Source: a virus. From it: a stretch of 23,286 nt of DNA. How positions within the stretch are numbered: the first letter of the stretch is position 1; each line of letters opens with the position of its first letter. Positions 10,897 through 23,286 of the stretch are shown in pieces. Location: positions 1 to 23,286 of the IMG/VR virus record IMGVR_UViG_3300007539_000235; one strand, written 5' to 3'. Under the pieces are notes generated by a model. It searched no databases. It was given only the letters and a program-made list of their open reading frames with translations, and was not told the origin of the DNA. The position numbers were made by a program, and so were the translations under genes.

Positions 10897-13320
10897 TTAC
10901 TTAGGTTCAAAGGTACCTAAGCCAAAACCTCCGCCAACTATGTCGTTTCCAGCGGATTCGAAGTTTTTAGGCGGTGTATTATTTTTTCTTTGCTCAATCA
11001 GCTCACTTTGCTGTGTTGCTTGCATTTTAGTTCTTTCGTCTTTGCGATCTTCTTTTTCCTGTTCCTTTTGCTTTTGCCCATCAACCTCAACACCTTTAAG
11101 CTGCATGTTGTATTGGAATTCCAAAGCCATAAGTTCTTTCTTTGCAGCTACTTCCTGTTGAAGTTTTTGCAATTCTATATCGCCCTTCATTTGTTCAAGC
11201 TGCGCTTTGGTTTGGAATAGCGCTTGGTCTTTTTGCACCTCAGCTTGTGCTGCCACTTGTTGTGCCTGTGCGTTTGCTTGTGCCTGTGCTTGGATGTTCT
11301 GCTGCTGCATCATTTGATCACGCTCAAGCTTTTTCTTACGGCGGAGTTTTAACAGTTGATTTGCTAGCTTAATGTTTCTTACTTCGCGAATGTCAATGGC
11401 GTCGTCTAAATCAATAAGACCAGCGGACAACGCTGTTTGAATATTGTTTTCTAACAACTGCTTTTCCTCATCATCCGGTGCTAATTCGATAAATATACCG
11501 AAGTCGTATAAATGCAATTCATTTAGTTCTTCTAATGTAGCTACATTGAACCCGCCAATTTTCTGTATAAATGCTTCTGATGAATCACTGTATTCTAATA
11601 TATCGGAAATGCGTAACGATAAACATTCTGCAGTTTCAGCCGTTAAAAACAAACCAGCGTCAAGAATATGGCGGGTAGCCGTGTTTGAATTTGCCGCCGC
11701 TAATTTTTGCACACCAACTAAAGCTCGTGAATCTGGCATAGAACCGTCACGTGCTTCATTTAACCCCGTTACATCGCGGATCATTTGCAAGTAATAGTTA
11801 TACGTGGTAATAAGCGTTTGCAGCTTTTGGCCGCCGGCACCTGTTTGTAATGGTTGGATTGGCACCTTACCAGGATTCATATCACCTTCTTGCGTAAACG
11901 AACGTCCAATAACAGAACCCGTTTGGAAGAACATATTAAGTGCTTCCTGTGGATTGTAATTCGTACCGTTACCTAAATCAATTTCAGCTAAACCATCTGC
12001 GTCTAAATAAACACCGTCTGGCATCATTTTAGATAATACTTGCTGTAGTTTTAAATGTGTGAGCTGAATCATATCCGCAAATCCGGTACAACGGCTTACG
12101 ATAGATTCAATGCGGCCTTTGTACATTCTAGGTGCTACAATACTATAGTTCATTTTAACTTTAGTATAATCGCTTTTTGGGCGGAGCATGTTTTTAGCTA
12201 TTTCCCACTTAAGCAGCATGTCTGTGCCTAAAACTAAAGCTCCTTCGTACAACACTTCTAGTGAGCGAGATAATTTACCAAACTCCTCGCTATCGGTTGG
12301 TGGATTGTATTGATCATCTCTTTCGATTGCTTTTTCCGCACCGCTAGCTGTCTTTTTAGTTTTATACACTTCATTCATATAGGTCTTATAATTAAAATAT
12401 AAAACCTGAACCGTGTTAGAATCTCTATCGTTGTAATTGTCTAAATGCTGGTTAAACGAGCTTGGGTATTTTCTGGCGCTTTGGCTTTGAATTTTTTCTA
12501 AATCATCATTGGTTAACCCTGGAAATTGCTTTTTAAGTTCGTTAATAGGCACCCATTTTGCTTCACCAACATAATATATATCTTCAAAATAAGGTGACTC
12601 GGTATAAGAATAAACTAAATTTGCCGGGTCTACATATTCAACCTTAACCCCCTCGGAAGTGTTAAATGTATTTTTAACAGCACCAATGCCTAATGTTGTA
12701 ATATCATAATAAACACGCTTTTTAGTAAGATCGTATTTATTGCCATCAAGCAATGTATTAATTGCAACTTCTTCTGCAATTTCTATGTTTTGCTTGTAGC
12801 TTAGCTGCATGTGTAATTCCAACTCTTCTTTGGATTCTGGTAATTCTGCTGGGTTATTTTCGTAAAGATTAATACCAAACGCTTCAGCAGCGTAATCATT
12901 TAATTCGCGTGTTTGCATATCGCGAATAATTGAATCCATATATTTAGTGCGTTTTGCTACGCCGTAAGGATCTTGAGAGTACGCTTTAATATCAAAAGCA
13001 CGATCCGCAATACCGTTAACTACAATATCAACAAATTTAGATAAAATAGGTACGGGTTTCCAGTCTAAATTTAAATAAGATAAATCACCGTTAATAGACA
13101 ACTCATCTTTGTATTTTTGTATACTTTGTTCACCGCGAGCATACAGCCTTAAATTGTGAAAAGTATTTTGATTGCTTTGATAGCGCACAGCCCCCGAATT
13201 GCTCGAAAACCACTCTTGCTGAATGGCTTTTCCTACCTGAAGCCCGTATTCATACGACATCTTTTCTTGGTCGCTAGCAACTTGGCTTGGGAAAAAACTA
13301 TTTACAACTAAGTTAGCCAT
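10897..13320 (-). CDS. Portal protein, crAss-like type
   Basis: This 807-residue protein starts four bases after the terminase stop. The N-terminal region contains LRLYARGEQ (about 57-65) and YLNLDWKPVPILSKFVDIVV (82-101), a pattern I recall from crAss-like portals. The body is mixed alpha/beta. A segment with GLNEARDGSMPDSRALVGVQ (about 550-575) matches the conserved portal region after the clip/stem. The C-terminal ~150 residues are Gln/Ala/Lys-rich coiled coil (QQQNIQAQAQANAQAQQVAA), ending in a short Gly-rich tail. The protein forms the dodecameric DNA channel at one capsid vertex, and terminase and adaptor dock to it. Length and the Gln-rich tail fit the long portals of crAss-like and related podophages. 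Function is well supported, but the exact family is from memory. Confidence 0.92.
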   Translation of the reverse strand: MANLVVNSFFPSQVASDQEKMSYEYGLQVGKAIQQEWFSSNSGAVRYQSNQNTFHNLRLYARGEQSIQKYKDELSINGDLSYLNLDWKPVPILSKFVDIVVNGIADRAFDIKAYSQDPYGVAKRTKYMDSIIRDMQTRELNDYAAEAFGINLYENNPAELPESKEELELHMQLSYKQNIEIAEEVAINTLLDGNKYDLTKKRVYYDITTLGIGAVKNTFNTSEGVKVEYVDPANLVYSYTESPYFEDIYYVGEAKWVPINELKKQFPGLTNDDLEKIQSQSARKYPSSFNQHLDNYNDRDSNTVQVLYFNYKTYMNEVYKTKKTASGAEKAIERDDQYNPPTDSEEFGKLSRSLEVLYEGALVLGTDMLLKWEIAKNMLRPKSDYTKVKMNYSIVAPRMYKGRIESIVSRCTGFADMIQLTHLKLQQVLSKMMPDGVYLDADGLAEIDLGNGTNYNPQEALNMFFQTGSVIGRSFTQEGDMNPGKVPIQPLQTGAGGQKLQTLITTYNYYLQMIRDVTGLNEARDGSMPDSRALVGVQKLAAANSNTATRHILDAGLFLTAETAECLSLRISDILEYSDSSEAFIQKIGGFNVATLEELNELHLYDFGIFIELAPDDEEKQLLENNIQTALSAGLIDLDDAIDIREVRNIKLANQLLKLRRKKKLERDQMMQQQNIQAQAQANAQAQQVAAQAEVQKDQALFQTKAQLEQMKGDIELQKLQQEVAAKKELMALEFQYNMQLKGVEVDGQKQKEQEKEDRKDERTKMQATQQSELIEQRKNNTPPKNFESAGNDIVGGGFGLGTFEPK

Positions 13321-13324
13321 ATTT

Positions 13325-15535
13325 TTATTCTATTATTTTTGAAATAAATCCCTTTTGATCATATCGAGCAATCTTAAGGTTTAATTTTGTTTTTTGTTGT
13401 TCTCCGACGGGTCTGTATAAATCTTTGTGGCAAGCCATAATAGCGAGGCCAGAACTAATAGCAGCATCATATTTTGTTCGGTTATTTATATCAAATTTTG
13501 ACCAATCGTTTAGTGTATCTGTAAAATACATTGTGCCGTAGTTGCCTTCGGATATTAGCCCTACATGCTGCTCGATATACATTTCAATTGCCGCAGCATG
13601 TGCTTGCTTCATGTCCATGCTTGAGTTTGGTATGCCTCCAATTTCTTTTTCAGTTACGGATAACTTGTTCCATAATCTGTCAGGTCGGTTCATCGAATAA
13701 CCCCTATAGCCTCTACGCTTAAAATGATAAAGCAGTCTAGGTTTGTTATTCTCAGCAAGTATAGGCATTCCGTAAAACACACAAGCCATAAGCACGTCTT
13801 CGAAAAATATCTCTGCTGTTTGAGGCCTAGCTATATACTCTAAAAAGAACGAGCTAGGCGGTGCGTCTTCCATTGTAAATTTGGTTAACCCATGCAATGC
13901 ACCTTTTGAGCCTCTGCCGTCAGTCGTACCTGATATATCGTAACTATCACAGCCAAATGCGCCAATATGCTCATTGCCTGGATATTTAATACCATTTTTA
14001 ATTATTTGACGATTTTGCAAGTTACCATTAGGCACCCATGATATTTTAAATCGCCCTTGTGGACTTGGTAAAAATACAACTTTTGTGTCTTTTACTCCGT
14101 TTGCCCATTGAAAATTACCGCGTGTTATAGTGTTACTATTACGCAGATCTTCATTATAATCAATTTGTTCGTATATTTTTGCTAAATTAAATATACTATT
14201 TTTTGTTTCATCGCGAAATGCGTGTTCGGTTGTACGCGGAAACTGTCTATAAAACTCGTTTAAAGCATCCTGGTCACTTCTAAGACCCTCAACTTCGTTT
14301 TCCCAGTAATCTATAACCCCTTGCTCAATAACGTCACCAAACGGGTCCAAAACGGCTTCAGTAGGATTATTAAATACGGGCTGCCCGTGTTCATCAATAA
14401 ATCCTTCGTAGTTCCATTCCATTGGGATAAACAACGAGTATAGCCCGGATTTTGTTTGTCCATTTGAATTACGCTTTGTTACGTCAGAATCGTTATACAG
14501 CTTTTTAAAGTTGTCTCCGCCTTTATCTAAAGCATTCGATGTACTACCCATCATACACTTTCCAATAACACGAGAACCAAGTCTTAATGTAGTTTTTGTA
14601 ACTCGCCAGTTGTTAAGTATATTATCAGGTCTTTCCCACTTACCGCTTTCATCATGCACAAGTAGCTTAAGCTTTTCACCATCGTAAGAGTTGTCGCCTG
14701 TATTTTTCCAGTCAATTGTTGTGTCAAGACCTTCAAGCTGTATTTTTTCCTCTTGGCTTTGTATGCTTTTTCTTGTTAACTTAGAAGCAGGAACCCTATA
14801 CGCCAGTTCAGTCTTCGGTCTATCCATACCATCTTGAATAGGTTTGAAGAAAAACGGGTAGTTGAGCGAAATGGGTACGACTTTATCGGTAAACATTTTT
14901 TTAGCATCTGCACCTGTTTTTGATAAGATACCGAATCTAGCATCACTTGAGATGGTTGCAAGATTAACAGTTTCTCCGGATGCCATAAATGAGAATCCAC
15001 TCCGTCTGTTTTTAAGGTAGCATATTCCGTAGCATCTGCTATCAGCTTTACAGGCTTCCCAGAATATAAAGAAGAGTCTATTTGCTTCTCTGTAATCTGG
15101 ATGCCCGACGTCAATCTTACTCCACTGCAAGTACATGTAGTGAGTGCCAGTAATATAAGTAGGGACGCCTTTATTATAAAACCAGTATCCATTTTCACGG
15201 CGGTTAAATTCATCATCAATATATTCCTCCCATTTATTTTTAAACTCATCAGGATAAGTTTGCCAATCAAATATACTTTTAATATTTTTTAGCTCCTTTG
15301 GGTATTCAGTAACCACCCATTTATCAGGGCCTTTTTTTAAACCCTTTGGAACAGGCGGTAAAGCAATGGTAAGATTTTGTATTTTAATAATTTCACCTAT
15401 CTGACCTGTTTGGCTAATAACCACTAAGTCGTGCTCTTTATTATAACCGTATTTCCATTTCTTACTCTTATTCACTCTGTGAATGGTGGTAAGCTTAACG
15501 GGTTCTACGGTTTTTACTAAATTCTGCTCGTACAT
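13325..15535 (-). CDS. terL: Terminase large subunit (packaging ATPase-nuclease)
   Basis: This 736-residue protein has the two-domain terminase layout. An N-terminal region has GVPTYITGTHYMYLQWSKID (about 123-142), followed by an atypical Walker A with an early lysine, KNRRSGFS (175-182), as in many large terminases. Walker B is LLVHDE (291-296) and the coupling motif is GSTSN (330-334). The RNase H-like nuclease shows FGCDSYD (Asp 530 and 533) and a late Asp in KYDAAISSGLAIM (about 688-700). It cuts the concatemer and pumps DNA through the portal using ATP. The ATG overlaps the preceding stop as TAATG, and portal follows after four bases. It is longer than most terminases because of the extra N-terminal ~120 residues, as in crAss-like phages. 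The call is firm. Confidence 0.95.
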   Translation of the reverse strand: MYEQNLVKTVEPVKLTTIHRVNKSKKWKYGYNKEHDLVVISQTGQIGEIIKIQNLTIALPPVPKGLKKGPDKWVVTEYPKELKNIKSIFDWQTYPDEFKNKWEEYIDDEFNRRENGYWFYNKGVPTYITGTHYMYLQWSKIDVGHPDYREANRLFFIFWEACKADSRCYGICYLKNRRSGFSFMASGETVNLATISSDARFGILSKTGADAKKMFTDKVVPISLNYPFFFKPIQDGMDRPKTELAYRVPASKLTRKSIQSQEEKIQLEGLDTTIDWKNTGDNSYDGEKLKLLVHDESGKWERPDNILNNWRVTKTTLRLGSRVIGKCMMGSTSNALDKGGDNFKKLYNDSDVTKRNSNGQTKSGLYSLFIPMEWNYEGFIDEHGQPVFNNPTEAVLDPFGDVIEQGVIDYWENEVEGLRSDQDALNEFYRQFPRTTEHAFRDETKNSIFNLAKIYEQIDYNEDLRNSNTITRGNFQWANGVKDTKVVFLPSPQGRFKISWVPNGNLQNRQIIKNGIKYPGNEHIGAFGCDSYDISGTTDGRGSKGALHGLTKFTMEDAPPSSFFLEYIARPQTAEIFFEDVLMACVFYGMPILAENNKPRLLYHFKRRGYRGYSMNRPDRLWNKLSVTEKEIGGIPNSSMDMKQAHAAAIEMYIEQHVGLISEGNYGTMYFTDTLNDWSKFDINNRTKYDAAISSGLAIMACHKDLYRPVGEQQKTKLNLKIARYDQKGFISKIIE

Positions 15536-15810
15536 TATTTAGATCTTCTTTCCGCAAAACCTTTAAAGGCTTCTTTCTTTTCCTCGGTAGGTTTATTCTC
15601 AAGAATGTTTTCTTCTTCTTGTATACGATTTAATATCTCGAAGGCGTCAAAGATAGCTAGTTTTTTTGTAGCAGCAGCGTTTTTCAGCCTATCTGCAGAC
15701 ACATCATCTTCTGTGTTTGTGATGATTTTTTCTTCAGCTACTTTGATGAGTTCCTCAACTGCTTTGTGACCAGCTTGGATTATACTCTTCTTCGTCTCCT
15801 TGATATTCAT
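15535..15810 (-). CDS. Terminase small subunit candidate
   Basis: The first ATG gives 91 residues from 15810. A longer frame would need a TTG at 15861 and more overlap, so I chose the ATG. The protein is helical: MNIKETKKSIIQAGHKAVEE at the start, then DDVSADRLKNAAATKKLAIF (about 36-55), DAFEILNRIQEEE, and a basic end, KGFAERRSK. I recall the ADRLKNAAATKKLAIFDAFE pattern from small proteins directly upstream of large terminases in marine phages. Its size, helices and position fit a TerS that recognises the packaging site, but no clear helix-turn-helix can be named. It overlaps the previous gene by 56 bases and couples to terL through TAATG, suggesting balanced synthesis of the two subunits. 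Confidence 0.8.
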   Translation of the reverse strand: MNIKETKKSIIQAGHKAVEELIKVAEEKIITNTEDDVSADRLKNAAATKKLAIFDAFEILNRIQEEENILENKPTEEKKEAFKGFAERRSK

Positions 15811-16345
15811 ATTTAATTGTAATTTGATTAGTTGGCACTCGATACAATCGTTCGCCTTCAATATTAAATTCGTATTCCATTCCTGGTTTAAAACCCACTA
15901 ACCAGTTTTTTTCAAAACCCTCGTCTGGGTATTTAATAATACCAACACCTTCGTGCTCGTGGTTGATTTCGAATTTATGTTTACCAGCAATAGGCTTTAT
16001 AAAACAAAACCCAGGAAGAGCTTTCCAGTCACCATTATTTTTATATGCGTAAATTTGATCAGGTTGCGCAAAAAACAAATCTTCTGAATAGTAAGATTTA
16101 CTATTTTTTTCTTTGCCTCTGATATCTCTAAATCTTCTAAAAATATTGTGGTGTAATATAACTTCATCACCAATCTTTATATCTGTAGGCATAGCTATAG
16201 GCAAAGCTGTTACCACACCTAGCCTGCTTGTATAAAAATGGTTTTGTAATTCAGTATTTAATATCAGCTCTTTATTGTCAATGTTTTTCTTAGAGGTAGA
16301 CCTGCTTTCTTTAGGGGTTACCATAAAATTAAAAACACTTTTCAT
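15755..16345 (-). CDS. Tandem GroES-like protein next to the terminase genes
   Basis: The start is the ATG at 16345, which overlaps the preceding stop as TAATG; an upstream TTG would only add two residues. It gives 196 residues that read as two co-chaperonin-like halves. The first (about 20-100) has RLGVVTALP, then DIKIGDEVILHHNIFRRF and SEDLFFAQPDQIYAYK, matching the GroES order of V-x-x-V..., V-x-x-GD-x-V and a final ligand strand. The second (about 108-190) has FCFIKPI, GVGIIKYP, FKPGMEYEFNIEGERLYRVP and NQITIKYEY, resembling GroES K-x-G-x-E-x-x-I-x-G-E-x-x-x-V. No obvious mobile loop with a GG-hydrophobic-x-hydrophobic motif is visible in either half. Its place before TerS/TerL suggests a virion or assembly role. 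The fold is inferred by eye. It may be a structural protein that reused the GroES fold rather than a cofactor of GroEL. Confidence 0.8.
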   Translation of the reverse strand: MKSVFNFMVTPKESRSTSKKNIDNKELILNTELQNHFYTSRLGVVTALPIAMPTDIKIGDEVILHHNIFRRFRDIRGKEKNSKSYYSEDLFFAQPDQIYAYKNNGDWKALPGFCFIKPIAGKHKFEINHEHEGVGIIKYPDEGFEKNWLVGFKPGMEYEFNIEGERLYRVPTNQITIKYEYQGDEEEYNPSWSQSS

Positions 16346-16563
16346 TACCAAGCTAGATCGTATTCAACTGAAATAGCCATGTTTTTATTAAAATCCTTCC
16401 ATGGCATTACTAAATCACCTTTTTGAATATAGATAGAATACTTTCCTTCTTCTTCTACAATGTTAACTATAGTATGACCACCATACACTTCCTGTCCAAC
16501 AGAGTAGTGCATAGCGTCATTTTTATAGTCCTTACCAATACTAATCTTCCTTATAGTCTGCAT
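16345..16563 (-). CDS. Small conserved-type phage protein, function unknown
   Basis: This 72-residue protein starts at an ATG inside the end of the previous gene (23-base overlap). It has an N-terminal IRKISIGKDYKNDAMHYSVG, then QEVYGGHTIVNIV, a strand KYSIYIQKG, MPWKDFNKNMAIS and the end VEYDLAW. I remember similar short beta-rich proteins (K-I-R-K-V-x-x-G-x-D-Y-K, then M-H-Y-x-V-G-Q) from marine phages, always small and without known role. It is translationally coupled to the tandem GroES-like gene (TAATG). Nothing shows catalysis, DNA binding or membrane insertion. I infer only that it belongs to the head/packaging operon. Confidence 0.8.
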   Translation of the reverse strand: MQTIRKISIGKDYKNDAMHYSVGQEVYGGHTIVNIVEEEGKYSIYIQKGDLVMPWKDFNKNMAISVEYDLAW

Positions 16564-16788: not shown

Positions 16789-17625
16789 TTAATTGTTTAT
16801 GTATTTCTTTAATTTATTTGCAACTTTTTCTTCAACTATGGGGTTTCTTTTAGCACCGGATATTAAATGTGTATACCCGACTTCTTTTGCTCTATCTTCA
16901 TAAACCCAAACCTGGTCTAAAACTTCAAAATTAATATTTTTTGCTTGAAGTAATTTTGAAATAAAAAATTGCTCAAAAACTATAGACGGTATATCCCAGC
17001 CATTTACCTTAGTGCCTATTTTTTCAATATAATCCATTGCGCATTCCCACCAAAGAGGTATGATGCTCAAATTATTAAAGCACATGAACCCGCAGTTAAC
17101 AGCGTATTCCTGGTATTCTATACTGTTCTGCTCATAGGGTACAATCGGGTTTTGAATATTTATGTGTTCGTTAATTTTTAATTTATCATTATCACGAACT
17201 TGCTCCACTAGGCTAATGTAAAACTGGTGAAAAGCGTCACTTATATATTCTTTATTTTGAAAAGCCGCGGGTGCATTTAAAATATAATCAGGCGGTCTTT
17301 TAAACCAAATCGCATCAAAATCAATGTGCATAAACGGTTCGTCTTGAATTGAACACGCATAGAGCTTTCCAATAGCCCAATGTATTTCATCAATATGATT
17401 TAGTTTGTCAAGCTCAACTCGAATATTGTCAAACGGCAGTTTTAAATCTTTTATTAAAAATTCATAGCCTTTTTGATCTGTTACGAGCTCAACAGTTTTT
17501 GCCCATTTTTTGCTGTTTAAAATAGAAAGCCGAGCACAGTTTGCAAACGCTTCTTTACTATTAAAACCAACGTGTTCTCCTTCCATTGGCTTTGACCAAT
17601 GGCTATAAACAACTTTATTTATCAT
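16789..17625 (-). CDS. Putative glycosyltransferase, DUF6734-like
   Basis: This 278-residue protein has a GT-A glycosyltransferase look. The N-terminal region has YSHWSKP (about 7-13) and a Rossmann-like strand VELVTD (45-50). An HWAIGKLYACSIQ helix (82-94) is followed by HIDFDAIWFK (100-109), whose Asp-Phe-Asp is in the position of the metal/nucleotide-sugar DXD motif. Later come GFMCFNN, FEQFFISKLLQ (a GT-type Glu helix) and THLISGAKRN near the end, where a His would contact metal or donor. From memory this matches the DUF6734 family found mostly in Bacteroidota and their phages. It may modify phage DNA, virion proteins or host glycans; the substrate cannot be told. It lies among structural genes with no other sugar genes visible. 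Activity is inferred from motifs. Confidence 0.82.
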   Translation of the reverse strand: MINKVVYSHWSKPMEGEHVGFNSKEAFANCARLSILNSKKWAKTVELVTDQKGYEFLIKDLKLPFDNIRVELDKLNHIDEIHWAIGKLYACSIQDEPFMHIDFDAIWFKRPPDYILNAPAAFQNKEYISDAFHQFYISLVEQVRDNDKLKINEHINIQNPIVPYEQNSIEYQEYAVNCGFMCFNNLSIIPLWWECAMDYIEKIGTKVNGWDIPSIVFEQFFISKLLQAKNINFEVLDQVWVYEDRAKEVGYTHLISGAKRNPIVEEKVANKLKKYINN

Positions 17626-17737
17626 CTTTTATATTATTGTAACCAACAATAAAAGAATTTTCTAAATAACTTTGTTTTTTACGTAACCTCAAAAAGAAAG
17701 TCTTCACTTGACTCCACAAACTTTTTATCATTTTCAT
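17615..17737 (-). CDS. Small basic ORF, 40 residues, unknown
   Basis: A 40-codon frame begins with MKMIKSLWSQVKTFFLRLRK and ends VGYNNIKDDK. It starts five bases after the preceding stop, and its 3' end overlaps the glycosyltransferase-like gene by 11 bases, matching the tight packing of this genome. The first 20 residues form a possible amphipathic, Lys/Arg-rich helix with aromatic residues that could touch membrane or nucleic acid. It fills what would otherwise be the largest unassigned gap (about 117 bases). No family is recognised. It could be a non-coding leader that is open by chance. Confidence 0.5.
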   Translation of the reverse strand: MKMIKSLWSQVKTFFLRLRKKQSYLENSFIVGYNNIKDDK

Positions 17738-17742
17738 ATTAT

Positions 17743-17955
17743 TTAATTTAAATTAGCATGCCCTATACCTTCGTTGTATTCAGTAGTATTAATATACTCC
17801 GGGACCGCAATGTCAAAAACAGTAGCTTGCTCCGTTTCTACCGCTGAATTTTTTTTAGCTGGTTCTGTTTCCTGTACTCCGTTTGTATAATTTATTTTTT
17901 GTTCACGGGTAATTAGTTTTTGTATTGCGCTTAATACCAGTTGCCTTATAATCAC
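17743..17955 (-). CDS. Small protein with apparent +1 frame break at its start
   Basis: The 70-codon frame has no ATG; its only good start is GTG at 17955. The ATG expected from this genome's spacing, one base after the previous stop, is at 17965 and opens a different frame reading MRNCDYKATGIKRNTKTNYP before a TGA at 17905-17903. If ribosomes shift +1 at the CCG-TGA end of that frame, the product would be about 73 residues, continuing EQKINYTNGVQETEPAK and ending IGHANLN. Both segments look protein-like. The options are a GTG-started protein, a programmed +1 frameshift, a sequencing indel, or two overlapping small genes. The product is polar and acidic toward the C-terminus, with no recognisable domain. 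Confidence 0.55.
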   Translation of the reverse strand: MIIRQLVLSAIQKLITREQKINYTNGVQETEPAKKNSAVETEQATVFDIAVPEYINTTEYNEGIGHANLN

Positions 17956-17966
17956 AATTACGCATT

Positions 17967-19622
17967 TTACAAATTATTTACACCAACGCCTTCACTGCCG
18001 TAATAGTAGTAGCCGATTGCTGGCGATTGCTCAGGTGACGGGGCATAAACCGTCTGGCTAAACATATAAGCATAATGTGCCTCCCCGTCAATCTCTAGTT
18101 TAGCTGTAATTTTACTGCGTATTGCCGAATAGTCTGCAATTCTTATCTGAGTGGGCATTTGAAAAAAATAGTTCAAATAATCTTGATCTACTTCTCTAGG
18201 TTTTGGTTGATATGGCGTCACAGATGTATTTACCACGCCATTGTCTTCTGTTACAGGCTGTAAATCTTCTGATTTAATGTTGGATATTGTAAAATTTTGA
18301 TTTTGCTTTATAGCTACGCGCCATGAATTGATTCCGTTCTTGTCTTTTACTTGTAGTTCGTGTTTATATCCAATGTTTCTGCCGTACTTTGGGTCTTTTG
18401 ACCACCAAGAGCCTATTGTTGCTTTTTCAACTATTGTGCCGTCTTCGCTTAATATAAGTTTAGGTCTTGATAGCACCGGCCAATACACGCTTTCTTGTTC
18501 GGTATCGTAAAGCGGGGTGTTTGGCGTATTGGTAACTCTAACGCTAGCTCGCGCCTGCGTTACACCGTCCCTGGCCCATGGGTAATATCTTCTTTGTGCT
18601 GGAAGAAGAGGGTAATAAGCATCTCCATATGATGGTAGCTCATTAATTGACGACAACGGATCTTTTCCATAGCGCGATTTGTAACCGATCTCGTCTCTAA
18701 CTTTTGCTTGAGGGTCAATATTTCCTATACCGTAAGTATAAACGTATTCACCCAGCCCGTCGATTTTAAAGGCAACACAATCGGCTGTCGGATAATCAAT
18801 AATCCCTGAACCATTTTCATCCGCGATATTTTGGCTAAATCCTCTAGTAAAAAGCGTTACTGGCTCAGCACCGGTGATTTCCCCATTATAAAATTCATTA
18901 TAAAAAACTACAATATTAATATTTGTTAAGCCGATAACGCCATTAGGCGGCAATAAAGATTGGTGAATACCCATTGGGTATGTAACGTTAATATACTTTT
19001 CATTACCCATCCATTTATATTCAAGTGAATCATCAATAACCGGGCTGCCTTGCATATACGATCCCGTACCAGCAATGGCGGCCTCCCAGTCTTCGGTAAC
19101 CAGTTTGGGGTGAAATAGACCGTCGGTTTTGTGAGGTGAGGCATATCCTTTTTCGTAGGTAATTCCTCTATAACCATCTTCATCTACTTTAACCCAAGGT
19201 CTTAAAAAATTTTTACTCCTTGGCGATTTAGGTTCAAAAATAAAAGACGGCAAATCTCGCCCTGCATAAAAATTAGCGTTTGAAGTTGTATTGGTAGCTG
19301 TAAATTCGCCATATCCTTGTGCATGTGTATATATTTTGCCATTCGGCTTTTGGCGATAATAAAGATTAGCTTTTGGTTTTACATTCCATAGCTCAGCTTT
19401 TCCATTAAACCTGGGAATATTATGTATAGTAACATATATAAATTGGCCTAAATGTTCGCTGGTTGTAGGATTACCGCTGCCAGGCGCATAAGATAAAGAC
19501 ACGTATACACCTCTATCAGATGAATCTTTAGAAAAATTTCTAAGAATGTCCTGGCTTTTAATAGCTTTAACAGATCTTGCTAATGTGCCTTTGCTAATTT
19601 TAGTGCCTGATGATATTTTCAT
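17967..19622 (-). CDS. Large beta-rich protein, probable virion component, unknown
   Basis: This 551-residue protein starts at an ATG one base after the previous TAG. I do not recognise it. A basic Ser/Lys-rich N-terminus (1-35) precedes a long region rich in Tyr, Gly, Asn, Pro and Thr with alternating strands. There are aromatic clusters such as YYPLLPAQRRYYPWARDG (about 335-353) and a Gly/Tyr C-terminus, AIGYYYYGSEGVGVNNL. No signal peptide or membrane segment is evident, and no enzyme motif was found. Composition and size fit a head fibre, spike or tail appendage, and a small beta-rich virion-type gene lies just upstream. A surface-exposed or host-contact role is possible, but nothing shows it directly. 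Confidence 0.8.
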   Translation of the reverse strand: MKISSGTKISKGTLARSVKAIKSQDILRNFSKDSSDRGVYVSLSYAPGSGNPTTSEHLGQFIYVTIHNIPRFNGKAELWNVKPKANLYYRQKPNGKIYTHAQGYGEFTATNTTSNANFYAGRDLPSFIFEPKSPRSKNFLRPWVKVDEDGYRGITYEKGYASPHKTDGLFHPKLVTEDWEAAIAGTGSYMQGSPVIDDSLEYKWMGNEKYINVTYPMGIHQSLLPPNGVIGLTNINIVVFYNEFYNGEITGAEPVTLFTRGFSQNIADENGSGIIDYPTADCVAFKIDGLGEYVYTYGIGNIDPQAKVRDEIGYKSRYGKDPLSSINELPSYGDAYYPLLPAQRRYYPWARDGVTQARASVRVTNTPNTPLYDTEQESVYWPVLSRPKLILSEDGTIVEKATIGSWWSKDPKYGRNIGYKHELQVKDKNGINSWRVAIKQNQNFTISNIKSEDLQPVTEDNGVVNTSVTPYQPKPREVDQDYLNYFFQMPTQIRIADYSAIRSKITAKLEIDGEAHYAYMFSQTVYAPSPEQSPAIGYYYYGSEGVGVNNL

Positions 19623-19623
19623 G

Positions 19624-19911
19624 CTACTTAATTGCTAGAATTGACGAAGCTGAAGTGTTTGTGTCTGTAACGTAGTCGACAATTGCTGGCAAGAAAGTTC
19701 CCTCAGGTACGTTGGCAAAAACGACTGCATTAGTCGCTAAACCGTCACCATCTAATACCGGTTCTATACCTTGCATAATAACACTTACATCACCACCACC
19801 GCCAACAAAAAGAGATGAGCCGTTTAAATATGTGGTTTTATCAAATGTATCACTTGCCGTGATTGACACCGCCTCTGTTGCAAAATCAGGTTGAGTTGCG
19901 TAATTTCCCAT
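19624..19911 (-). CDS. Small beta-rich virion-type protein
   Basis: This 95-residue protein resembles a widespread small phage family that I know from memory. It has an aromatic/Thr N-terminal part with FDKTTYLNGSSLFVGGGGDV (about 23-42), a central Val/Ile strand, then VVFANVPEGTFLPAIVDYV (about 63-81) and a Thr/Ser-rich end, SASSILAIK. The pattern 'L-F-V-G-x-G-G-D-V ... N-V-P-x-G-T-F-L-P' is typical of minor head or decoration-type proteins in marine phages. It has only beta-like segments and no cysteine. It lies between a membrane protein gene and the 551-residue gene, far from the capsid gene, so decoration is plausible but not shown. Confidence 0.85.
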   Translation of the reverse strand: MGNYATQPDFATEAVSITASDTFDKTTYLNGSSLFVGGGGDVSVIMQGIEPVLDGDGLATNAVVFANVPEGTFLPAIVDYVTDTNTSASSILAIK

Positions 19912-19926
19912 GTTTATTATTGTTTG

Positions 19927-20361
19927 TTAGATGAAGCACCACAAAACCCATAGTAATGTACTGCCAATATTAAAAGCTAATGTTTGATTTTTTGTAAGCT
20001 TATATTTTACAGGCCAGCCCAACTTACAGCCTTTATATTGAAACAACCCCGGACCGTTATGACAGCTAAACCAAGATTTTTTACCGAAAAACCATTTCAT
20101 AGGTTTATCTATTAAATCTGGTAAATTAGCCATAATCCAACCCGTGAGGGCTAGCCAAAAATTTCCCGATAATGCAGATGCTATTAAAAATATTAAAAGC
20201 AAAGAACCTTCAATAATTGAAGACTTTAGCGTGTTACCTATAGAGCGTTCTCCAATGTAATCCCAAATAAAATGAGATACAAATGCAGCGGCGGCTCCGA
20301 TTGGGTTGGGAGCAATAACCATTATAGCAGCTCCTGTTGTTCCGTGTACTGAACTATACAT
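19927..20361 (-). CDS. Membrane protein, distantly like DUF457-type metal hydrolases
   Basis: I chose ATG 20361, one base after the previous TGA, giving 144 residues; an earlier ATG at 20427 would add 22 residues and a 65-base overlap. The sequence shows hydrophobic segments near 8-30, 48-75 and 125-144. MYSSVHGTTGAAIMVIAPNP and AFVSHFIWDYIGE (about 26-38) are followed by ANLPDLIDKP (about 77-86) and SCHNGPG. His, Asp and LPDLID spaced among membrane helices recall membrane-bound metal-dependent hydrolases (DUF457/YdjM-like), but the match is weak. Possible roles are inner-membrane remodelling, lysis support or superinfection effects. Its place in a block of small genes does not decide between them. 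Confidence 0.75.
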   Translation of the reverse strand: MYSSVHGTTGAAIMVIAPNPIGAAAAFVSHFIWDYIGERSIGNTLKSSIIEGSLLLIFLIASALSGNFWLALTGWIMANLPDLIDKPMKWFFGKKSWFSCHNGPGLFQYKGCKLGWPVKYKLTKNQTLAFNIGSTLLWVLWCFI

Positions 20362-20362
20362 A

Positions 20363-20677
20363 TCAACAATTCCATCTGCGGCGCGCTGCACGACCGCGTT
20401 CTGATGTCCACCCTTTTGAGCGGGCACAAAATGATTTTCTGCGTTTTGCCGCTCTACTTCCTGGTTTAAGTTCCGATGGTGGAGTGGTTACTGCAGTTTG
20501 CAAATTACTGCCTGGATTGTCCGCTTTGTATTTATCAACACCTTTTTGTGACATACCGCCGCCAGCAGCGGCTCCTGTTCCGGTAGGTTTAGCTTCGTTG
20601 TAGTACCCTTTAGATTTTTTTCTAGAAGGGGCATCGCCTTTCTTTTTAAATGGTGAATTGTTTTGTACGTATGCCAT
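20363..20677 (-). CDS. Small basic protein with RRKSFCAR and RRWNC end motif
   Basis: This 104-residue protein is Lys-, Gly- and Pro-rich at the N-terminus (VQNNSPFKKKGDAP) and probably disordered over about 1-70. It ends with AAKRRKSFCARSKGWTSERG and ARRRWNC as the last residues. I recall small marine phage proteins ending 'RRKSFCARMxG...KW-x-C' and so treat the ending as conserved; two Cys and many Arg suggest nucleic-acid or metal binding. The ATG overlaps the previous stop as TAATG and the next gene begins one base after its TGA. It could be a minor virion protein or a small nucleic-acid-binding factor. No experiment-based role is known to me. Confidence 0.82.
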   Translation of the reverse strand: MAYVQNNSPFKKKGDAPSRKKSKGYYNEAKPTGTGAAAGGGMSQKGVDKYKADNPGSNLQTAVTTPPSELKPGSRAAKRRKSFCARSKGWTSERGRAARRRWNC

Positions 20678-21188: not shown

Positions 21189-21628
21189 CATCGCTCTTTA
21201 TCTTTTATCATGTCGTCTATAGCTTTGTTGTAAACTTTATCTATATAAGACTTGTTTTTGTAAAACACGCTAGATTCACCCACTGGTAAATCTTCATAGC
21301 CTAACAATATGTTGTATATTCTAGTGATTAAACGTTTTGTTTTGGGTGCAACTTTAAACACGCTGTATTTAATAGTTGTTCTGTTTCTATGCCTCCATAC
21401 TTCAATCCAGCCTTCTCGACGTAATCTTTCCCAACGGCCTTTATCCCATGAATACGTATAAGTACCGTTAATAAAGTCTTCGCGTGTGAATCTATCTTTG
21501 CAATCAAGATAAATCAAAAGCTCAAGATCCGCATCATTAATCCCGTAAGTTTTACAAGCCCACTTTCTAACGAGCCTGTAATACTTAAACAGGTTTATTT
21601 CACGTAAATCAGATGGAGCTAATCTCAT
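21188..21628 (-). CDS. Winged-helix-like protein, possible regulator
   Basis: I chose ATG 21628, which overlaps the groES stop as ATGA, giving 146 residues; a farther ATG at 21682 would overlap groES by 58 bases. The body reads like a winged helix: ADLELLIYLDCKDRFTREDF (about 33-52) as helices, WDKGRWERLRREGWIEVWRH (about 60-79) as recognition helix and wing, and NRTTIKYSVFKVAPKTKRLI as the final strand and helix. MarR-type DNA-binding proteins show this order, and I recall similar short proteins in marine phages. It may control late gene expression or serve a structural role. It is probably co-translated with groES. There is no visible operator to test the idea. Confidence 0.78.
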   Translation of the reverse strand: MRLAPSDLREINLFKYYRLVRKWACKTYGINDADLELLIYLDCKDRFTREDFINGTYTYSWDKGRWERLRREGWIEVWRHRNRTTIKYSVFKVAPKTKRLITRIYNILLGYEDLPVGESSVFYKNKSYIDKVYNKAIDDMIKDKER

Positions 21629-21882
21629 TCTACAATAACAATATCGCCAAGGTTGATTACGTGGTAAAGCTCTTCTTCCCATTCTATGCCGTGCCCCGCG
21701 TGTTTATCGTATCTAATAATGTTACCGGGCTTTAGCATAGTTACCTTGTCTCCAACACTGACAATTTCAGCTTTAAGATAGCGCACATCTTTGTTTTGAT
21801 CTTCAGTGAGCTCAAGCCCACCTACTTTTTTAGGCGCTTCCTTAATCTTACGTATTACAATATAATGATTAATTGCTTGCAT
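21625..21882 (-). CDS. groES: Co-chaperonin GroES, phage type
   Basis: The ATG at 21882 gives 85 residues; a TTG six bases upstream was rejected. The start [19 protein letters not shown] aligns with the GroES beginning. The mobile-loop signature is GGLELT (about 21-26), matching bacterial GG-(I/L)-V-L-T but with a central Glu instead of Val. SVGDKVTMLKPGNIIRYDKH carries the core strands, and GDIVIVE ends the chain. It is about ten residues shorter than the E. coli protein, and the loss lies where the roof hairpin should be, as in T4 gp31. Seven copies would cap the phage GroEL cage. The gene overlaps the groEL end by 14 bases and follows groEL, the reverse of the bacterial groES-groEL order. 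Confidence 0.9.
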   Translation of the reverse strand: MQAINHYIVIRKIKEAPKKVGGLELTEDQNKDVRYLKAEIVSVGDKVTMLKPGNIIRYDKHAGHGIEWEEELYHVINLGDIVIVE

Positions 21883-23286
21883 TTTCAATACGCTTGTTAG
21901 AAATTATACAATCCGCAGACATAATCGTTGTAGCCACACTCACTGCGTTTTTAAGCGCTGTTTTGGTTACTAGCACTGGATCAATAATACCAGCTTTAAT
22001 CATATTTACAATTTTACCGGTTTTAGCATCTACCCCTTTGTTTTTTGTAACAATTGGCTCATTAAGTGCAATCCCAGCGTTTTCCATTATAGTGTTAAAT
22101 GGCGCACGAATAGCTCTTAACAATATCGTATGCCCTAGGCTTTTAGACTTAATTTTTTGCGAGGCATGCAATAAAGCTGCTCCACCACCGGGTACGACAC
22201 CTTCTTTTAAAGCTGCTTGCACAGCGTAGATAGCGTCTTCAACGCGGTCTTTCTTTTCTTTCAGCTCTACTTGCGAGTCAGCCCCAACGTGTATGATCCC
22301 GACACTGCCGGAGAGCATGGATAACCGTTGCTCGAGCTTGGTTTTAAGGAAACCGTTAGTTTCTTCACTAATTTTTTTGCGTACATCTTCAATACGTTCT
22401 TTTAATACATCGGGTTCTACGTTAACTTGCAGCACGGTACTTTTGTTGTTCGTAACAGCTTTTACAGCAGAACCTAGTACAAGAGGGTCGATTAAATCTA
22501 AATCATCACCTAACTGTTCGTTAATAATTTTTGCACCAGTAAGCAAAGCTAAATCTTCAATAGTATCTTGCTTTGTAGGTCCAAACCCTGGTGGGTCAAT
22601 AATATTAACTTTGATATTCCCTTTTACCTTGTTCGCTAGTAGCGTTTGGTAAGGTTGTTGCTCCATATCGGCAACAATTAGTAAAGATCGGTTATTTTTA
22701 ATTGCAAATTCTAAAATAGATTGAATTCGTCTAATATTAGGTATTGGTGAAGTTACAATGAGCACCAACGGGTTATCGAGCTCTGCAACGCCTTTATCCT
22801 TGTTTGTTACAAGATGCGGCGACTTAAGCCCCGAATCAAATTGTGTGCCTTCAACAAAATCCACATACGTTTCATTTGTTTCGGACTCTTCCATTAATAC
22901 GACACCATCTTGTCCAACTTGGCTGAAAGCTTCTCCAATTTTAGCTCCAAGCTCTTGATCATTGTTACAGCTAATGTAAGCAACTTGCTGTAGCATTTTA
23001 TCTTTAAGCGGAATACTGGTGCGTTCAAGATGAACCATAATTTCTTCAGCACAACTATTAATGCCTGCTTTAATGCTTCTAATTTGCTCTTCATCTATAT
23101 GCTCATTTATTTCTTCTAAAATCGCATGAGCGAGCACGGTAGCTGTTGTAGTACCGTCACCCGCCTCACGCACTGTATTTGCCGCGGCTTCCTTAATTAA
23201 GGTCGCCCCGATGTTTTCGACCGGGTCAAATAAGACTACGCTTTCCGCTACGGTTACACCATCTTTTGTAATGACCGGCCGGCCCA
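21869..23286 (-). CDS. groEL: Chaperonin GroEL (cpn60), 5' end outside the window
   Basis: The frame is open from the window edge, so roughly the first 33-35 residues are missing. It begins with [20 protein letters not shown], then [15 protein letters not shown] with the nucleotide-binding Asp. It continues [16 protein letters not shown] in the apical domain, [25 protein letters not shown] with the catalytic Asp (Asp 398 in E. coli), and [10 protein letters not shown]. The chain ends [11 protein letters not shown], without a Gly-Gly-Met tail, for an estimated full length near 505 residues against 548 in E. coli. It folds proteins in an ATP-driven double ring; here the likely client is the capsid protein. 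Several apical residues that contact substrate and GroES in E. coli differ. groES overlaps its end by 14 bases. The call is firm. Confidence 0.96.

Follow-up and report, generated by a model that had tools for sequence, protein, structure and literature searches.

A putative 551-residue head-spike fibre encoded beside a predicted homologue of the Carin-1 and RcGTA spike bases

We analysed a 23,286-base virus record (IMGVR_UViG_3300007539_000235; the whole stretch is referred to as the window). A 551-residue protein encoded on its minus strand (positions 17967 to 19622) is probably the fibre of a capsid head spike of the kind found in RcGTA and the phage Carin-1, an assignment that we regard as putative. 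The first-pass annotation had guessed at a head fibre or spike, and this guess gains support through the adjacent gene: its 95-residue product is homologous to head-spike bases, and the RcGTA base carries a fibre. Five observations support the assignment, namely the homology of the base, its predicted fold, the 1-nt linkage of the two genes, the recurrence of base-plus-plug pairs in related loci and the replacement of bodies in relatives. The head-spike system is of a known kind; the 551-residue body is an orphan.

The 551-residue protein and its surroundings

The reading frame starts with ATG and fills 17967 to 19622 on the minus strand; the length had been given correctly before, with the strand unstated. 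The plus strand of the same interval is full of stops in frame. When the window was shuffled 50 times by mononucleotides, open runs reached 222 codons at most, so the ORF is not a product of chance. The earlier description of the protein's composition and motifs proved accurate: it is rich in Tyr (7.8%), Gly (8.3%) and Pro (6.5%), has no clear membrane segment (best 19-residue hydropathy, 1.28), and contains the aromatic cluster PAQRRYYPWARDG as well as a YYYY motif 10 residues before the C-terminus.

The absence of a recognised family, also claimed earlier, was borne out. The protein matched no family in Pfam and PHROGs at E values up to 1 or in NCBIfam at E values up to 0.1, and none of an enzymatic or catalytic kind in these three collections. 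A tblastn search of 50,697 phage and 72,556 plasmid records gave no match at E 1, and none of 40 related records matched; the window's own record did. Peptide-pattern scans of viral contigs, taken whole and in thirds, and of genome contigs, which detect close relatives and would let distant ones escape, found no relative. Two phmmer matches in the PDB (E 0.9) were dismissed as chance level. A single-sequence AlphaFold model was useless (pLDDT 29); it gave no support to the earlier description 'beta-rich' and was kept out of the fold search.

The gene lies between the end of the GroEL/GroES region and the large terminase gene (TerL), adjoining the 95-residue gene. The main genes of the window follow one another on the minus strand in the order GroEL, GroES, small genes, the 95-residue gene, the 551-residue gene, a 70-residue gene, a DUF6734 gene, TerL (phrog_6681) and portal (phrog_6547), with further virion structural genes beyond. 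One of these, which matches phrog_13704 and is labelled virion structural, is probably the major capsid protein gene. The region at 1.2-7.2 kb had been called a tail block, a designation that was not confirmed: the sole PHROG label there is 'virion structural protein'. GroEL and GroES occupy 21.6-23.2 kb, and the start of GroEL appears to lie beyond the window end. There are two GroES-like genes, at 15755-16351 (phrog_13932, E = 5.8e-14) and 21625-21888 (NCBIfam GroES, E = 4.3e-8), which together with GroEL at the window end make up a phage chaperonin set. The TerL protein matches 91 phage records (68 Flavobacterium elemo, 15 Cellulophaga; the nearest is MW202828) and at least 600 IMG/VR stretches, the best 80 of which were kept.

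The neighbouring head-spike base

The 95-residue gene (19624 to 19911, minus strand) ends in TAG, followed by one base and then the ATG of the 551-residue gene. Its product had been described as small and of decoration type. Searched alone, the sequence matched 8cjz_h ('Spike Base Protein') with an E value of 0.038. A profile built from five sequences of the family improved this to 5.4e-6 and added the RcGTA base Rcc01079 (0.022); with 48 sequences the E values in the PDB were 1.1e-8 and 2.7e-4, respectively. The third-ranked match was at 0.32, leaving the Carin-1 and RcGTA head-spike bases as the only two solved proteins at E < 0.1.

An AlphaFold (AF2) model computed from the 48-sequence alignment has a pLDDT of 92 and six strands. 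A Foldseek search with this model returned just two entries below 1e-3, 8cjz_h and 6tb9. In VIA-align the model superimposes on the Carin-1 base with a Z score of 11.2 (2.0 Å over 82 residues) and on the RcGTA base with a Z score of 10.0 (3.0 Å over 79 residues); the next row is at 5.1. Rows at Z ~5, which include rotavirus VP5*/VP8* assemblies and particles, were taken to reflect a common jelly-roll likeness rather than kinship. 8cjz is the capsid of Carin-1, and GenBank describes gp40 of this phage as 'head spike base protein, structurally identified and validated'. Judged by sequence profile and predicted fold, the 95-residue protein is a homologue of the Carin-1 and RcGTA head-spike bases.

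The RcGTA spike provides the template for the larger protein. According to PMC7296036 it consists of a base pentamer and one fibre, whose residues 2-10 (IALGLGLGL) are held in pockets of the base; beyond this plug the fibre is flexible, and it is through head fibres that attachment to the polysaccharide capsule becomes possible. PMC10218006 likewise has the fibre anchored by its N-terminus, and binding of capsule polysaccharide by the fibre is reported in both sources.

Base partners and the variable cassette in related loci

To 80 of the 264 qualifying IMG/VR stretches with base homologues we added L084, L005 and L002, giving 83 rows, 82 of which had enough downstream DNA to score a partner ORF. 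An ORF of at least 30 residues starts between -8 and +20 nt from the base stop in 74 of these 82 loci. The partners' N-termini include MGLGLGLGIWW, MIGLGLGTN, MGFGIGIGIGW, MSIGLGTYV, MYISIANAI and MKIGGKIGIS, and 24 of 45 distinct ones contain two or more alternating hydrophobic-small steps, compared with 47 of 1243 background ORFs. Base and partner are most often spaced as in the window, by 1 nt, which is the case for 25 of 43 partner representatives. We found no description of base-plus-plug cassettes in flavophages in the literature searched, a body from which subscription papers were mostly absent.

The eight bases with no adjacent partner ORF are those of L112-L116, L118, L147 and L152. 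In L112-L116 and L118 the next gene, at +83 nt, encodes a different small protein of 85 residues; the base of these loci may act by itself, or its partner may be encoded elsewhere. At L147:2790-3973, a 303-residue protein encoded after the base opens with the base-like MGQYGNQPDFAT and is followed by a plug-like gene (MGMGIGIGW); a duplication or fusion of the base is possible. At the other extreme of partner length, seven of the 43 representatives are just 42-53 residues long. Those of 42-46 residues (L121:4418-4549, L111:6275-6412, L117:3931-4056, L090:4045-4182) carry short ENGDF-like segments after the plug, which suggests minimal spikes or vertex caps. MW202828 has its base relative at about 12866-13336, with a 48-residue peptide next in line; the assignment of the matching pair to 16560-18867 of L001 was wrong.

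More distant TerL relatives have a different small protein in the corresponding region, of either a FPKGxTIYGRW type or an 83-84-residue type. In 15 of 16 examined cases it overlaps by 1 nt a gene that starts with a plug-like peptide (for example MLGLG or MALGLGLGL), as at L031:1914-3037, L052:3767-4974 and L080:4987-5993. We read this as a likely second base family, perhaps unrelated to the first, that uses the same plug. Comparison of genes directly before plug genes (15 sequences) with the base profile was unconvincing (best score, 9 bits). The 128-130-residue genes of several TerL relatives were rejected as a single second base family, the alignment having included a holin-like membrane protein.

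The proposed docking segment of the 551-residue protein is formed by its first 12 residues, MKISSGTKISKG (19587 to 19622, minus strand), the position equivalent to the RcGTA plug. By eye this segment resembles plugs of the MKIGGKIGIS type. By position weight matrix it ranks 19 of 1243 background N-termini, with no alternating steps, a feature shared by five of the 45 distinct partner N-termini; in a gapped alignment to known plugs it ranks 190 of 1350. Both ranks are marginal. In a gapped leave-out test 4 of 52 known adjacent N-termini ranked as low or lower. The ranks are conservative, because the background includes probable plugs of the second kind (L031, L052, L080 and others), although these do not rescue the gapped-test rank. 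Because the N-terminus is a marginal plug match, the fibre assignment rests on position, spacing and variability.

The genes for the base, the 551-residue protein, the 70-residue protein and the DUF6734 protein make up a variable cassette (16789 to 19911, minus strand), as defined by tblastn against eight loci, one of which (L004) begins inside it. The 551-residue, 70-residue and DUF6734 proteins had no match at E 0.01 in these loci. The comparison of variability with neighbouring genes that the first-pass annotation had proposed as a check gave the following: in the three close relatives with a base gene (L084, L010 and L005) the TerL protein is 85-89% identical to that of the window and the base 52-57%, and the 551-residue protein is unmatched (E 0.01). 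Close to the cassette, by contrast, lies a 72-residue gene (16345-16563) that keeps 83-90% identity across the six nearest of the relatives compared. The DUF6734 gene (16789-17625) has a Pfam match of 6.4e-39. A 166-residue protein with hydrophobic stretches (19927-20427) is, like the DUF6734 protein, unmatched in the eight loci, and the two suggest further cargo beside the spike genes.

Partners can differ while the base stays the same. L121 and L122 have 100% identical bases, with dissimilar partners of 44 and 294 residues; in L150 and L157, whose bases are 92% identical, the partners are alike in the first 20 residues only (95%). Among 26 pairs of loci with base identities of 85-99.9%, the partners are similar in 15, match over less than half their length in two, and have no BLAST match in nine, which amount to only about three independent cases because several loci are near-identical. 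Identical bases go with similar partners in 23 of 24 pairs and with dissimilar ones in the remaining pair. Bodies are replaceable on the base; most near-identical bases nevertheless keep similar partners.

The same variability would suit a different role, in which the 551-residue gene is inserted accessory cargo, for example an enzyme, lying between the base and the true, possibly short, fibre, with its product off the virion. Of the parts compared, the cassette varies most, and it also holds the DUF6734 gene and other unshared genes; the N-terminus is only marginally plug-like, and in a close relative (L005/L121) a 44-residue peptide and then other genes come after the base. Bases without a partner and partners of 42-53 residues mean that the true plug could be another gene; a candidate is the 70-residue gene, which lies 11 nt after the stop of the 551-residue gene and begins VIIRQLVLSAI. 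We nevertheless consider cargo unlikely, given the start of the 551-residue gene 1 nt past the base stop, at the commonest partner spacing, and the lack of any enzyme family match in Pfam, PHROGs and NCBIfam.

If the protein is a spike fibre, it might in addition be a polysaccharide depolymerase. In 30 partner bodies scanned we found ArabFuran-catal (four), Laminin_G_3 of the lectin/glucanase superfamily (three), PKD (two) and DUF285 (two), besides matches to PHROGs labelled Hoc-like head decoration (two and one members), virion structural and tail protein. The first two domains, and an aromatic-rich composition that would suit sugar binding, speak for a depolymerase; however, ArabFuran-catal in phage appendages may mark a fold only, and the failure to match a catalytic family in the three collections argues against this specialised version of the spike-fibre reading, which we think improbable.

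Four of five more distant isolates examined have a base-plus-plug pair: Carin-1, Verrucomicrobia phage P8625, immuto and Edwardsiella phage ZHS. The partner in P8625 (gp24, annotated as lectin-like) starts MIGLGLDLS, and the pair adjoins tape-measure and tail-fibre genes. The immuto partner begins MYIGLGISL and its pair comes directly after the major capsid gene; the ZHS partner starts MIGLGLNIW and its pair lies between the portal/minor capsid and major capsid genes. Caulobacter Cr30 has a base relative ahead of its tail sheath gene and lacks an adjoining plug gene. Gene neighbourhood alone cannot decide between head and tail, because the P8625 pair adjoins tail genes; the two solved structures favour a head placement of the base family.

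The label 'tail fiber protein' is carried by phrog_12296, which 41 of the 48 members of the base alignment match, and in GenBank by elemo gp44, immuto gp205 and P8625 gp23. It is likely a misnomer, because profile and fold tie relatives of these proteins to head-spike bases. The 95-residue protein of the window matched no PHROGs family at E ≤ 0.001, phrog_12296 included. That the base and the 551-residue protein are tail parts, an adaptor and a tail fibre, is very unlikely: these labels, the P8625 and Cr30 neighbourhoods and several partner bodies matching tail-labelled PHROGs (for example phrog_5939 in 3 of 30) point that way, but both solved relatives are capsid proteins, the immuto and ZHS pairs sit with head genes, and we have seen no experiment behind the label.

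The proposed spike and known systems

We therefore return to the 551-residue protein as a head-spike fibre. By homology, the 95-residue base would assemble as a pentamer at the capsid vertices, the portal vertex excepted. The extreme N-terminus of the 551-residue protein would dock into the pockets of this pentamer, probably with one copy per spike on the RcGTA model. The Tyr/Gly/Pro-rich body would reach outward and make a reversible first contact with polysaccharides or other glycans of the host surface, before the tail engages.

Much of the 'dark matter' of phages consists of orphan proteins of this sort. In the present case a tiny conserved neighbour and the plug rule suggest a role for a protein without detectable relatives. 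In flavobacterial and other phages the rule points to a host-contact cassette that is mounted on the head and open to change, and whose genes carry the database names 'tail fiber' or 'hypothetical'. If this is true, host contact of these podoviruses begins at the capsid, and position, rather than similarity, can be used to locate fibre genes. A more sweeping version, which we offer tentatively and rate as possible rather than probable, is that very different tailed phages share an exchangeable socket at the capsid vertex: the conserved base pentamer would take almost any receptor-binding body with a short hydrophobic plug at its N-terminus, the head as well as the tail would hold a hypervariable host-recognition cassette, and the 551-residue protein would be a new glycan-binding fold with a divergent, lysine-rich plug. 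As a system this is only modestly new; what stands out is the orphan body of the fibre and the breadth of the base-plus-plug rule.

Three known systems are closest. In RcGTA (base Rcc01079, fibre Rcc01080; PMC7296036) a homologous base is likewise paired with a longer protein, for which N-terminal docking is expected. The RcGTA fibre is shorter (325 residues versus 551), and its clear IALGLGLGL repeat is absent from the window protein, whose PDB matches are no better than E 0.9. In Carin-1, a podovirus of Cobetia (8cjz, PQ119497), gp40 is the closest solved base, and the start of the next gene, for the larger gp39 (384 residues), overlaps the gp40 stop; gp39 starts MLGLGLGIARQ, whereas the window protein starts MKISSGTKISKG. 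The Elemovirus pair gp44/gp43 (Flavobacterium phage vB_FspP_elemoA_7-9A) lies in a stretch that, between the chaperonins and the terminase, is ordered much as in the window, with a base 36-41% identical to that of the window and the partner 1 nt downstream. Its chaperonin genes are on the other strand, and no similarity was detected between gp43 (501 residues, MFISIANAIGV) and the 551-residue protein. The phrog_12296 family differs in two respects: the base of the window falls short of it at E 0.001, and the solved relatives are proteins of the head.
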